Below, one piece after another: positions 46,571 to 55,652 of a stretch of 64,000 bases of DNA (positions within the stretch are counted from its first letter, which is position 1; every line of letters starts with the position of its first letter). Origin of the DNA: Bordetella pertussis 18323 (GTDB lineage Bacteria; Pseudomonadota; Gammaproteobacteria; Burkholderiales; Burkholderiaceae_B). The DNA is taken from NCBI RefSeq assembly GCF_000306945.1, contig NC_018518.1, forward strand, positions 3,472,001-3,536,000, read 5' to 3'. The notes under the pieces are model-generated. The model was not told the DNA's origin and made no database searches. It was given only the letters and a program-made list of their open reading frames with translations. A program made the translations under genes and the position numbers.

Positions 46571-47455
46571 ATGGGAACGCCCGTTCGCTATATCGACAAG
46601 ACCCGCGATTACTACCTGCCCCAGGGATACGAAAAACCATATCAGTGGGCGCAGTACGACGACGTGCCGTTCACCCCGCTGGGCAAGCCGCTGTCCGAAT
46701 GCCGTGTCACGCTGATTTCGACCAGCGAGATCTCCATCGTCGGAGACACGCACCCCGAGGACGAAACCCGCATGGGCATCGTCGGGGGCACGTACACCAT
46801 CCCGTCCAGCCTGCCGGCCAGCCAGCTCTACAGCCCGTCGCGCAGTTTCGACCAGGCCGCCACCACCCTGGAGGACGTGGACGCCTTCTTCCCCACCACG
46901 CACCTGCATGCGGCCGCGCAGGCCGGGCGCATCGGCGGGGTGACGCAACGGTTCCATGGCGTGTTTAACGCCTACAGCCAGCGCCGCACGCGCGAGCGCG
47001 ACGCGCCGCTCGTGCTGGAGCGCTGCAAGGAGGATGGCGCGGACGTGGCCATCCTGGTGCCGGTCTGCCCGGTCTGCCACCAGACCATCAGCCTGGTCAG
47101 TCGCCATCTCGAGGCCAACGGCATTCCGACCGTCATCCTGGCCGCGGCGCGCGATATCGTCGAGCATGTCGGCGTCGCGCGTGTCGTGCATACCGATTTC
47201 CCGCTGGGCAATCCGTGCGGCGAGCCCGGCAACGCCGCGCAGCAGCGCGAGATCCTCGAATACGGCTTCCAGCTGCTCGAACGCGCTTTCCTGCCGCGTA
47301 CCACCGTGCAATCGCCCATGCGCTGGTCGGCCGGCGAGGCCTGGAAGGACCTGGTCTTCACGCCCGAGCAGCCGTGGAAGAGCGGTGAAACCGAACAGGA
47401 CTGGCTGCGCAAGAAAGAGCTCTACAAGAAACTCAAACAGGAAGGCAAGGTATGA
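46571..47455 (+). CDS. Glycine/sarcosine/betaine reductase component B (GrdB)-family protein, Cys version
   Basis: The 294-residue protein resembles the C-terminal half of GrdB/PrdB-type selenoproteins: TLISTSEISIVGDTHPEDET, then GIVGGTYTIPSSLP, and VAILVPVCPVCHQTISLVSRHLE. GrdB enzymes use a selenocysteine with a Cys in a redox pair, and here CPVCH (Cys166, Cys169) takes that place. No UGA is present. AGGAG at 46558-46562 supports the ATG at 46571. Its stop overlaps a glutaredoxin gene (ATGA), followed by a CoA-transferase gene, so it may be a thiol-dependent reductase or lyase in organic acid metabolism. The substrate is unknown. Confidence 0.75.
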   Translation: MGTPVRYIDKTRDYYLPQGYEKPYQWAQYDDVPFTPLGKPLSECRVTLISTSEISIVGDTHPEDETRMGIVGGTYTIPSSLPASQLYSPSRSFDQAATTLEDVDAFFPTTHLHAAAQAGRIGGVTQRFHGVFNAYSQRRTRERDAPLVLERCKEDGADVAILVPVCPVCHQTISLVSRHLEANGIPTVILAAARDIVEHVGVARVVHTDFPLGNPCGEPGNAAQQREILEYGFQLLERAFLPRTTVQSPMRWSAGEAWKDLVFTPEQPWKSGETEQDWLRKKELYKKLKQEGKV

Positions 47456-47700
47456 ACATGGCCCACGACATCGTTGTCTACGCCACGCCGTTTTGCGCGC
47501 CATGCGAACGGCTCAAGAAATTCCTGCAGGAAAAGCAGGTGCCGTTCAGGTCGGTCGACCTGATGATGGATGAAGAGGCCGCCGAGAAGCTGGAGGACCT
47601 TGGCATCCGGTCCTCGCCGGTGCTGGAGGTGGACGGCCGCTATTATCACGGCGGCCAGTTGCAGCCCGACACCTTGGCCGCGCTGCTGGGCCTGCCATGA
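47452..47700 (+). CDS. Glutaredoxin-like protein
   Basis: The 82-residue thioredoxin-fold protein has the dithiol site TPFCAPCERLKKFL (Cys15, Cys18), the cis-Pro in SSPVLEV and the GG turn in YHGGQLQPD. It is coupled by ATGA overlaps to the GrdB-like gene before it and the CoA-transferase gene after it, so it probably reduces the CxxC of the GrdB-like protein or a related partner. GGAAGG lies six bases before the ATG. Confidence 0.88.
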   Translation: MNMAHDIVVYATPFCAPCERLKKFLQEKQVPFRSVDLMMDEEAAEKLEDLGIRSSPVLEVDGRYYHGGQLQPDTLAALLGLP

Positions 47701-48902
47701 AAGGGCCGCTCGATGGCGTGAGAATCGTCGACCTGACGACGGTGCTGATGGGGCCGTTCGCGACCCAGATGCTCGGCGACATGGGCGCCGACGTCATCAA
47801 GATCGAGGCGCCGCACGGCGACGTGTCGCGCCAGATATGGCCCTATCGCCATCCCGGCATGGGCCATATGTTCATGAACGTCAACCGCAACAAGCGCTCG
47901 GTGGTGCTCGACCTCAAGCACGCCGAGGCGCGCAAGGCCCTGTTCGCGCTGCTGGCCGGGGCCGACGCGCTGATCTACAACATCCGGCCGCGCGCCATGG
48001 CGCGCATCGGGCTGTCGTACGACGAGGTGGCGCGGCACAACCCCCGCCTGCTTTACGTGGGCGCGTTCGGCTACAGCCAGCGCGGGCCCTATGCCGCCAA
48101 GCCCGCCTACGAAGACTTGATCCAGGGCGCGGTGGGCCTGCCGCATCTGTTCCAGCGCCAGGGCTCGCAGTGGCCCCACTACGCGCCGATCAATCTGGCC
48201 GACCGCACCGTGGGCCTGCAGATCGTCAATGCCGTGTGCGCGGGCCTGTTCTGCCGCGAGCGCACCGGCCAGGGGCAGCGCATCGATGTGCCGATGTTCG
48301 AGGCCATGCTCGCGCTGGTCATGGGCGAGCACCTGGGCGGCGCCGGTTTCGAGCCGCCGGTCGACGGGCTGGGGTACAACCGCATCCTCACGGCGGATCG
48401 CCGGCCGTTCGCGACCCGAGACGGCCACATCTGCGTGCTCATCTACAACGACAAGCAATGGCAGGGGTTCTGCCGGCTGATCGGACGGCCGGAACTGGCC
48501 GCCGATCCGCGCTACGCGACCGCCGCGAGCCGCAGCCAGCAATATTCCGAGATCAACGGCCTGCTCGCGTCGGAGTTCGCGCAGCGCGATACGCAGGATT
48601 GGATAGCGGCGTTCGAGGCGGCCGATATTCCGGTGCAGAAGATGAACGATCTGCAGGACATCCTGGACGATCCGCATCTGAACGCCATTGATTATTTCCA
48701 GGAACACCCGCATCCCACCGAAGGCACGATACGCACGACCGCGCCGCCGGTCGAATGGTCGGGCACGCCCGGCGGGTATCGCCGCCACGCGCCGCGGCTG
48801 GGCGAGCACACGCTCGAGGTATTGCGCGAAGCCGGCATCGGCCAGGGCGATATCGATGCGCTGCTTGCCAGTGGCGCCGCGCGGTGCGCCGTGTCCGGCT
48901 GA
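47697..48902 (+). CDS. CaiB/BaiF class III CoA-transferase, copy 1
   Basis: The 401-residue protein has the family III start GVRIVDLTTVLMGPFATQML, GADVIKIEAP and NRNKRSVVLDLK, and the catalytic Asp169 in NLADRTVG, which forms the acyl anhydride. It would move CoA between carboxylic acids in the cytoplasm. It is the third gene of a coupled operon with the GrdB-like protein and glutaredoxin. Its substrate could be a sulfur-containing or betaine-like acid judging from neighbours. Confidence 0.88.
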   Translation: MKGPLDGVRIVDLTTVLMGPFATQMLGDMGADVIKIEAPHGDVSRQIWPYRHPGMGHMFMNVNRNKRSVVLDLKHAEARKALFALLAGADALIYNIRPRAMARIGLSYDEVARHNPRLLYVGAFGYSQRGPYAAKPAYEDLIQGAVGLPHLFQRQGSQWPHYAPINLADRTVGLQIVNAVCAGLFCRERTGQGQRIDVPMFEAMLALVMGEHLGGAGFEPPVDGLGYNRILTADRRPFATRDGHICVLIYNDKQWQGFCRLIGRPELAADPRYATAASRSQQYSEINGLLASEFAQRDTQDWIAAFEAADIPVQKMNDLQDILDDPHLNAIDYFQEHPHPTEGTIRTTAPPVEWSGTPGGYRRHAPRLGEHTLEVLREAGIGQGDIDALLASGAARCAVSG

Positions 48903-54394: not shown

Positions 54395-54698
54395 GTCATC
54401 CGGCCTCCTTCGCTACCGACGACCTGTCGGCCCTGGGCCAAGCATAGCCGTCCCCTCATCCGGCCGGCGCTTGTTGCGCTGCGATCGTTCGCTATGCGAA
54501 ATCTTCGCCCCGGCGGCGCCGTTGCGCAGGGCGCTCCGAGTGTACTTGAGCCGCGCCTGCGCGGGCGCTCGGCCCGGGTTTTCCCGCCTCGCGGCCGGCG
54601 TGCATTTCGCCATGCAAGCGCTAGGCGCGCGCTGGCCTGCGCGGCCGTTTCGCGTACCTATAATCGCCGGCGTTGAACACACCGCCGGAGGCTGGTTC
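54395..54698 (+). promoter_or_regulatory. IclR/thioredoxin-reductase divergent intergenic region with operator-like dyad
   Basis: This 304-bp region has no gene. TTCGC-TAT-GCGAA (54488-54500) is a perfect 5-bp inverted repeat of the type used by IclR proteins. A consensus TATAAT at 54659-54664 is the probable -10 element for the flavoprotein gene, but the -35 position (CTGGCC area) is weak, which fits activator control. Confidence 0.6.
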
Positions 54699-55652
54699 GT
54701 GAATCCACCCAAGCATGCCAAAGTCCTGATCCTGGGTTCCGGCCCGGCGGGATATACCGCCGCCATCTATGCCGCCCGCGCCAATCTCGCGCCGCTCGTG
54801 GTCACCGGCCTGGCGCAAGGCGGACAGTTGATGACCACCACCGACGTCGACAACTGGCCGGCCGATCCCGACGGCGTCCAGGGCCCGGACTTGATGCAGC
54901 GCTTCCTGCGGCACGCGCAGCGCTTCGATGCCGGCGTCGTGTCGGATGCCATACATACGGTCAGGCTGGACCGGCGCCCGTTCGCGCTGACGGGCGACCA
55001 GGGCGCCTATACCTGCGACGCCCTGGTCATTGCCACCGGCGCCTCTGCGAAGTATCTGGGCCTGCCTTCCGAGCGCGCGTTCATGGGCAAGGGCGTGTCG
55101 GGCTGCGCCACCTGCGACGGCTTTTTCTATCGCAATCGGGATGTATTGGTCGTCGGCGGCGGCAATACCGCCGTCGAGGAAGCGCTGTATCTCTCGAACA
55201 TCTGCCGCACCGTGACCGTGGTGCACCGCCGCGACCGGTTCCGGGCAGAGCCCATCCTCGTCGATCGCCTCCAGGCCAGGGCGGCGCTGGGCAAGGTGAA
55301 GTTCGAGTACTTTCACGAACTCGACGAGGTGCTGGGCGATGCGTCCGGCGTGACGGGCGCGCGCCTGCGCGACAACCGCGACGGGACCGCCAGGGACGTC
55401 GCGGCCAAGGGCGTTTTCATCGCCATCGGCCACGCGCCCGACACCGGCCTGTTCGAGGGCCAGCTGGCGCTGCGCAACGGCTATATCGTCACGCGCGGCG
55501 GCTTGTCCGGCCTGGCGACGATGACCTCGATACCGGGCGTGTTCGCGGCGGGCGATGTCCAAGACCAGATCTATCGCCAGGCTGTCACCAGCGCCGGCAC
55601 GGGCTGCATGGCGGCGCTGGATGCGCAGCGCTGGCTGGAAGGGGCCGCCTAG
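54699..55652 (+). CDS. Thioredoxin reductase-like NADPH-FAD protein
   Basis: The 317-residue flavoprotein has the FAD loop [10 protein letters not shown] (13-22), the redox CATC (Cys136, Cys139), the NADPH loop [10 protein letters not shown] (153-162) and the C-terminal [10 protein letters not shown]. It is the low-molecular-weight TrxB type. The GTG at 54699 has GGAGG seven bases upstream. Its TAG stop lies in the IS481-6 target. With the glutaredoxin and GrdB-like protein of the island it may form an electron chain, though a housekeeping TrxB role is possible. Confidence 0.88.

Follow-up and report, generated by a model that had tools for sequence, protein, structure and literature searches.

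A cysteine-form relative of PrdB-type selenoproteins in a CoA-transferase and thiol-dioxygenase gene island of Bordetella pertussis 18323

Bordetella pertussis 18323 carries, between two copies of IS481, a gene island whose first gene encodes a distant relative of GrdB and of the selenoprotein PrdB. We analysed this island within a stretch of 64,000 nucleotides (the window), that is, positions 3472001-3536000 of the single 4.04-Mb contig of the genome, here called G000. Among the closest described systems is PrdB itself. According to the excerpts used here, marine surveys list PrdB among the commonest selenoproteins, with 235 selenocysteine (Sec) and 110 cysteine (Cys) sequences and the motif UxxC in the Global Ocean Sampling data (PMC2398784) and 42 Sec sequences in the Sargasso Sea (PMC1088965); in the same excerpts the assignment to proline reductase is made by homology. 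The fluoroacetate reductase FarB/FarE contains a GrdB relative which is proposed to release fluoride, and its partner lacks the pyruvoyl site (PMC10838667, in excerpt). On the side of thiol oxidation, the clusters of mercaptosuccinate dioxygenase (Msdo) in Advenella and Variovorax hold a rhodanese and a cystathionine beta-lyase, and Bug-like proteins are more abundant on the substrate in these organisms (PMC5373536, in excerpt). Finally, the mdo-act-acdA-ech cluster of Variovorax TBEA6 combines a thiol dioxygenase and a class III CoA-transferase with CoA-linked cleavage of a carbon-sulfur bond (PMC6370202, likewise in excerpt).

What the island adds to these systems is the apparent selenoprotein ancestry of its GrdB-like protein, a missing pyruvoyl partner and a link with thiol dioxygenase and CoA-transferase which was apparently assembled twice. 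We suggest that the island may be one CoA-dependent catabolic module for an organic sulfur acid, with the GrdB-like protein and its glutaredoxin as a reductive step, a reading whose chances we put slightly below even.

The GrdB-like protein gives no Pfam match at 1e-3. Its best NCBIfam model is PrdB (TIGR04483), which covers residues 45-248 and scores 98.4 bits against a cut-off of 300; the model of glycine/betaine/sarcosine reductase protein B (TIGR01918) reaches 32.5 bits, below its cut-off of 65.45. Membership in the GrdB family, as proposed in a first-pass annotation of the window, thus stands as a relationship, and only as a distant one. The UxxC/CxxC catalytic motif is present as CPVC in the window protein, no variation is seen at C177, P178, C180, H181 and Q182 across 63 protein-database sequences, and the predicted structure has a model pLDDT of 89.6. 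Relatives were collected by scanning one genome per species with two peptide patterns, and the best 80 of 111 loci were kept. This set includes six close loci and many short contigs; one of the two patterns holds Cys at the catalytic site, and the share of Sec forms applies to this sample only. In 47 of the 80 loci the next gene after the GrdB-like one encodes a glutaredoxin. The pyruvoyl-type partner PF09338 gave no match in G000 nor in 18 of the 19 other genomes with the gene (19/20 in all, several of them drafts). Because this partner was not found, and as the PrdB score lies below the cut-off, the protein is very unlikely to be a D-proline reductase.

Compared with PrdB (TIGR04483) and GrdB, the protein thus has the same core with the Sec/Cys-xx-Cys motif, and Sec in most of the loci examined, but differs in its score far under the curated cut-off, in the lack of a detected PF09338 partner, in its own glutaredoxin and in its CoA-transferase neighbours. 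With the "proline reductase PrdB" of the marine surveys it has the motif and the family name in common, and several of our Sec loci stem from genomes with marine names. The marine PrdB reads may belong to the window's subfamily, a link drawn by motif and family name. FarB/FarE resembles it in having a GrdB relative whose proposed leaving group is not ammonia. By analogy, the fluoroacetate reductase suggests that GrdB-type chemistry need not involve an amine; as far as the excerpt goes, FarB/FarE comes from an anaerobe and has FarE as partner (PMC10838667), whereas no partner was found for the window's protein.

The catalytic site was readable in all 80 loci and is encoded by TGA in 71 and by a Cys codon in nine (L028-L033, L047, L105, L107). 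SelB exceeded the cut-off in 13 of the 13 Sec-form genomes tested. The genomes without SelB over the cut-off (G000, G202, G207, G218) all carry the Cys form, and three Cys-form genomes (G200, G201, G203) have SelB. The window genome has neither an in-frame TGA at the catalytic residue nor SelB over the cut-off. A hairpin 11 to 29 bases 3′ of the TGA shows all seven pairs in 64/71 Sec loci and GT in the loop in 70/71; in seven Sec loci the outermost pair fails. At three pairs both sides have changed together, from C-G to T-A (six loci), from G-C to A-T (three) and from A-T to T-A (one). The serine within the stem is encoded by AGT in 65/71 Sec loci; outside this position AGT accounts for 85 of the 949 serine codons of these genes. 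Among the Cys forms (n = 10, window included) not one retains all seven pairs, and only L047 has GT in the loop. In the phylogenetic tree the window falls into a clade of seven Cys rows (support 100/98) that lies within Sec rows, and the distribution can be explained with four label changes. The tree was built without the short locus L092, which was counted in the codon and hairpin tally; it is rooted at the midpoint, and the direction from Sec to Cys rests on parsimony. Judged from these sequences, the GrdB-like protein of the window appears to be a Cys descendant of selenoproteins, which is new. We note, however, that another subfamily in the window's own family (L005-L023, n = 19) has ten readable members, all of them Cys, a count from which L024-L027 (30-35% identity, TGA inside) were left out. 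This weighs against a sweeping statement of Sec ancestry.

Several observations concern relatives of the GrdB-like gene. The Cys-form gene of L047 has a TAA inside and belongs to a genome without SelB over the cut-off; it retains AGT for the stem serine as well as the GT of the loop, and for this reason its change from Sec to Cys may be recent. A second PrdB-like gene (31-35%) lies near the first at L038:9124-9906, L039:166-948, L058:1473-2213 and L072:14521-15261. These genes also have an in-frame TGA at the site, but in their motif, UPLDHQT, Sec is not followed by the second cysteine. In L070 a further gene copy with UPVCHQT lies at 13744-14502. Further, a protein with an alkylmercury-lyase (MerB) domain is encoded at L081:12833-13306, roughly 2 kb away from a GrdB-like gene of the Sec form.

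The features of the island and its borders are as follows (coordinates of the window; the start codons of the open reading frames (ORFs) are our choice).

45451..46512, minus strand: IS481 copy, left border; coordinates approximate, stops some 70 bases short of the GrdB-like start codon
46571..47455, plus strand: GrdB/PrdB-like protein, 294 residues from ATG; motif CPVCHQT, Cys form (Sec in most related loci)
47079..47097, plus strand: relic of the Sec-insertion hairpin; seven-pair stem at the same position with one A-C mismatch, loop ATC versus GTG in Sec forms
47452..47700, plus strand: glutaredoxin; nearest NCBIfam models of the YruB and NrdH types, all below cut-off
47697..48902, plus strand: class III CoA-transferase 1 (CoAT1); overlaps the glutaredoxin gene by 4 bases
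48978..49970, minus strand: Bug/TctC extracytoplasmic binding protein; paired with CoAT2 in L028 and L029 too (62-63%)
49993..51213, minus strand: class III CoA-transferase 2 (CoAT2); orthologue co-occurs with the cupin in 5/18 genomes
51210..51854, minus strand: thiol-dioxygenase cupin of the mercaptosuccinate-dioxygenase branch
51851..53484, minus strand: multi-rhodanese; frame broken near 52360
53585..54394, minus strand: IclR-family regulator; 63% to the IclR adjoining the GrdB operon in L028 and L029
54699..55652, plus strand: second thioredoxin reductase (TrxB); might serve to reduce the glutaredoxin
55640..56701, plus strand: IS481 copy, right border, at the TrxB stop codon

The island thus reads GrdB/PrdB-like protein, glutaredoxin and CoAT1 on the plus strand, then Bug, CoAT2, cupin, rhodanese and IclR on the minus strand and TrxB on the plus strand, with 4-base overlaps at four gene pairs (GrdB-glutaredoxin, glutaredoxin-CoAT1, CoAT2-cupin and cupin-rhodanese). 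The first-pass description of the island as a whole is partly confirmed and its interpretation partly supported. The two bracketing IS481 copies are indeed near-identical and inverted, the glutaredoxin, both class III CoA-transferases, the Bug protein and the IclR regulator were all identified, and what had been called TrxB-like proves to be a complete thioredoxin reductase (368 bits to TIGR01292, cut-off 343). Less straightforward is the multi-rhodanese, where rhodanese stretches are found but not in one open frame in the window genome.

The linkage of these genes was followed in the six closest loci (L028-L033, GrdB-like identity 77-83%), whose record titles are betaproteobacterial, save that of L029, which names Proteobacteria only; L030 belongs to Lacisediminimonas profundi, an environmental isolate. 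The glutaredoxin and CoAT1 genes follow the GrdB-like gene in all six, and IclR (61-64%) lies within 4 kb of it in five. Within 10 kb we found the cupin (68-69%) in three of the six, the rhodanese (57-58% over its first part) also in three and CoAT2 with its Bug protein in two. The gene order in L028-L030 is unlike that of the window, as the cupin side and the GrdB operon diverge there and IclR converges with the operon. In L028 and L029 an S/N-oxide reductase of the bisC family stands between CoAT2 and the cupin side (the L028 copy was tested and gave 990 bits, below the cut-off of 1018). IS481 was not matched in L028-L034 in a search at E 1e-5. The first-pass annotation had named absence of linkage in relatives without IS481 as its refutation; instead linkage holds there. 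As it is kept in the six closest loci, the gene association is no accident of the flanking IS481 copies. Although L028 bears the title Bordetella parapertussis, its GrdB-like protein shares only 83% identity with that of the window, and the record is perhaps a mislabelled metagenome bin; the title of L097, Klebsiella pneumoniae, looks equally doubtful.

A composite IS481 transposon seems unlikely, as the 6-base flanks differ at both bracketing copies, a weak test with two informative bases each. The flanks mismatch at the copies at 7997, 31843, 46499 and 55654 of the window and do match at those at 10671 and 40346. The unmatched flanks suggest recombination between copies.

Co-occurrence was counted in 18 genomes picked for holding the GrdB-like gene. 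The genomes with a cupin orthologue (68-100%) are G000, G200, G201, G202 and G287. These five, and no others, also have a CoAT2 orthologue (60-100%, E no higher than 1e-150), a count not corrected for the kinship of the five. In G202 the two genes are found on separate contigs (0.61 and 1.24 Mb), and more than 250 kb separates either gene from the nearer contig end; this co-occurrence is therefore not mere linkage. The draft of G287 is fragmented and has the two genes on small contigs, from which nothing follows on linkage. None of the 11 genomes outside the Cys clade has a cupin or CoAT2 orthologue at that level.

A second assembly is found in g33, another genus of the window's family. In the six genomes of g33 that give a GrdB-like match (L153, L156-L160), which count as one case, an operon joins CoA-transferase, crotonase, cupin and GrdB-like genes. 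The CoA-transferase is 43-45% identical to CoAT2, the cupin 24-30% to the window's cupin and the GrdB-like protein, of another subfamily, 40-44% to the window's. The L156 cupin scores 200 bits to 3-mercaptopropionate dioxygenase (3MDO; 3uss/4tlf) and 216 bits to 4qma, deposited as cysteine dioxygenase. The CoA-transferase, crotonase and cupin of L156 are 69, 52 and 55% identical to those of a locus at 507-514 kb of G000, where no GrdB-like gene was seen. Thus it seems that thiol dioxygenase, class III CoA-transferase and GrdB-like protein have come together on at least two occasions, with members drawn from different subfamilies. The desulfinase AcdA was not over the cut-off in five of the six g33 genomes. 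In addition, a binding protein reading like TRAP DctP belongs to the g33 operon in five of six.

These data bear on a rather doubtful alternative, namely that two pathways stand side by side by chance, with GrdB, glutaredoxin and CoAT1 serving one function and cupin, rhodanese, CoAT2 and Bug a mercaptosuccinate-like thiol oxidation. Cupin and CoAT2 orthologues share the five genomes named above, and two of the seven Cys-clade genomes (G203 and G288) have the GrdB-glutaredoxin-CoAT1 set with neither a cupin nor a CoAT2 orthologue. Hence the GrdB operon can exist without both, and the two halves of the island are partly separable. Further, L029 holds a second cupin-rhodanese-IclR-Bug set with no GrdB-like gene beside it, and the GrdB-glutaredoxin pair is spread wider than the rest of the set. 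Chance neighbourhood fits poorly with the linkage kept in rearranged order in L028-L030, with one IclR orthologue serving both arrangements and with the separate g33 operon, which again joins dioxygenase, CoA-transferase and GrdB-like protein.

It is unlikely that the GrdB-like protein and its glutaredoxin are a redox defence enzyme, that is, a peroxide, disulfide or electrophile reductase, which is merely located beside catabolic genes. Such a role would agree with the Cys/Sec-xx-Cys motif and the dedicated glutaredoxin, with an ORF that by eye reads like glutathione reductase directly before the GrdB-like gene in L041, L042, L053, L065 and L092, and with the place of PrdB among the redox-motif selenoproteins in the excerpts of the marine surveys (PMC2398784, PMC1088965). 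It does not account for the overlapping GrdB-glutaredoxin-CoAT1 chain of the window nor for the fact that two separate assemblies link the gene to others of CoA-dependent type. The island TrxB is a second copy, 74% identical to the TrxB at G000 2794105. Among 15 genomes of the genus only the window genome has a second TrxB and only the window genome has the GrdB-like gene; this is one coincidence and no test, and a link with TrxB was not seen in the related loci. The TrxB gene at 2794105 adjoins an ORF which by eye reads like FtsK.

The first-pass annotation saw in the island the parts of the breakdown of 3-mercaptopropionate and 3-sulfinopropionate. That the cupin is a thiol dioxygenase stands, and H101, H103, H157, H171 and Y173 are kept in the alignment, which we take to be the three histidines and the His/Tyr pair expected of this family. 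Its nearest solved relative is mercaptosuccinate dioxygenase (8vni, 119.6 bits; next best 29.7), and 3MDO reaches only 27 bits. Two other cupins of the window genome also match 8vni best, with 105 and 89 bits. G000 has three further thiol-dioxygenase modules, L164 (770-778 kb), L165 (264-271 kb) and L166 (507-514 kb), which comprise a beta-lyase with a cupin-rhodanese fusion (of 701 residues), a crotonase-cupin-rhodanese set and a CoA-transferase-crotonase-cupin set of the 3MDO type. The 507-514 kb locus, which has IclR, CoA-transferase and crotonase genes and whose cupin shares 55% identity with a 3MDO-type one, fits the proposed breakdown better than the island does, and AcdA (NF042439) was not over the cut-off in the window genome, where the best match has 258 bits versus 600. 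As to Act, the class III CoA-transferase for the sulfinate in the 3-sulfinopropionate route, the island has two transferases of this class. Thus the known route, or a remnant of it, is a very improbable explanation of the island, even if thiol dioxygenase, class III CoA-transferase and Bug are present as in the excerpts on Variovorax and Advenella (PMC6370202, PMC5373536). With the mdo-act-acdA-ech cluster the island shares the thiol dioxygenase, the class III CoA-transferase and, in our proposal, a CoA-linked carbon-sulfur cleavage, but it has no acdA-like or ech gene and its cupin is of another branch. With the Msdo clusters it has in common an Msdo-type cupin beside a rhodanese; those, in the excerpt, carry a cystathionine beta-lyase and LysR, whereas the island carries GrdB-glutaredoxin, two CoA-transferases and IclR. 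Stickland-type amino-acid reduction by a D-proline or glycine/betaine reductase, for which the best NCBIfam model would speak, can practically be dismissed given 98 bits against a cut-off of 300, no PF09338 partner in G000 or 18 of the 19 other genomes, and neighbours that include a dioxygenase of the oxygen-using type.

For a single module acting on an organic sulfur acid, which is supported by the linkage in relatives also as regards the extra reductive set of the first-pass annotation, we suggest the following steps. The Bug protein would bind the acid outside the cell and a class III CoA-transferase would form its CoA thioester. Then the GrdB/PrdB-like enzyme could carry out a reductive step; its own glutaredoxin, helped here perhaps by the extra TrxB, would keep the enzyme reduced. 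We propose a bond-cleaving reduction because GrdB, glutaredoxin and CoAT1 stand where other modules of G000 have a lyase or crotonase; by analogy, the three other dioxygenase modules pair the thiol dioxygenase with a beta-lyase or crotonase, two of them also with a rhodanese, which is reminiscent of the Msdo clusters (PMC5373536, in excerpt). Cys177 may act as the attacking nucleophile and Cys180 may resolve the intermediate, without a pyruvoyl partner. Most likely the enzyme would break a bond between carbon and sulfur or between carbon and another heteroatom, or else a disulfide, to give a thiol and an acyl-CoA. Oxidation by the cupin could turn this thiol into a sulfinate, which the second CoA-transferase could activate; the rhodanese would handle the released sulfur and IclR would control the gene set. 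That the steps form one pathway, their order and the attacking residue are inferred, whereas gene content, linkage, co-occurrence, nearest families and the failure to find a pyruvoyl partner are observed, as is the place of the GrdB-like protein among selenoproteins.

Besides the two Cys-clade genomes that lack cupin and CoAT2, several findings speak against such a module. A class III CoA-transferase lies within 3.5 kb in only 15/80 loci and a cupin within 8 kb in 4/80, though many of these contigs are short, and the CoAT1 family is common, with a relative at E 1e-120 in 141 of 268 genomes of the family. In the window organism the module may be decaying because the rhodanese frame is broken. 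From about 52360 the last part of the rhodanese is read in another frame, while the gene is one open frame in L029, L030 and L032; Pfam finds three stretches in the first piece and one below the cut-off in the second, and by eye there is only one cysteine loop of the CSGRTRS type, in the first, open piece. Likewise, expression of the GrdB-like gene in the window genome may be altered, as the left IS481 copy ends about 70 bases upstream of its start.

A wider proposal, which we regard as improbable so far, is that the GrdB/PrdB-like protein and glutaredoxin form an unrecognised pyruvoyl-independent reductase of aerobes that cleaves the carbon-sulfur (or another carbon-heteroatom) bond of an acid or acyl-CoA. 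The abundant marine "PrdB" would represent the selenium-containing form of this enzyme, and the island would have its Cys-converted version, embedded in a pathway that reveals its task.

In summary, the island offers a handle on what may be the true role of an enzyme that is usually filed as proline reductase. PrdB has been filed so by homology, yet the required partner was not found in 19 of the 20 tested genomes with a relative of the window's protein. The betaproteobacterial Cys forms stand in operons with a CoA-transferase and adjoin thiol-sulfur genes, and they can be expressed without selenocysteine machinery, so that the function is directly testable in E. coli and in an environmental isolate. 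Moreover, they present a readable step from Sec to Cys in which the insertion hairpin is half preserved.

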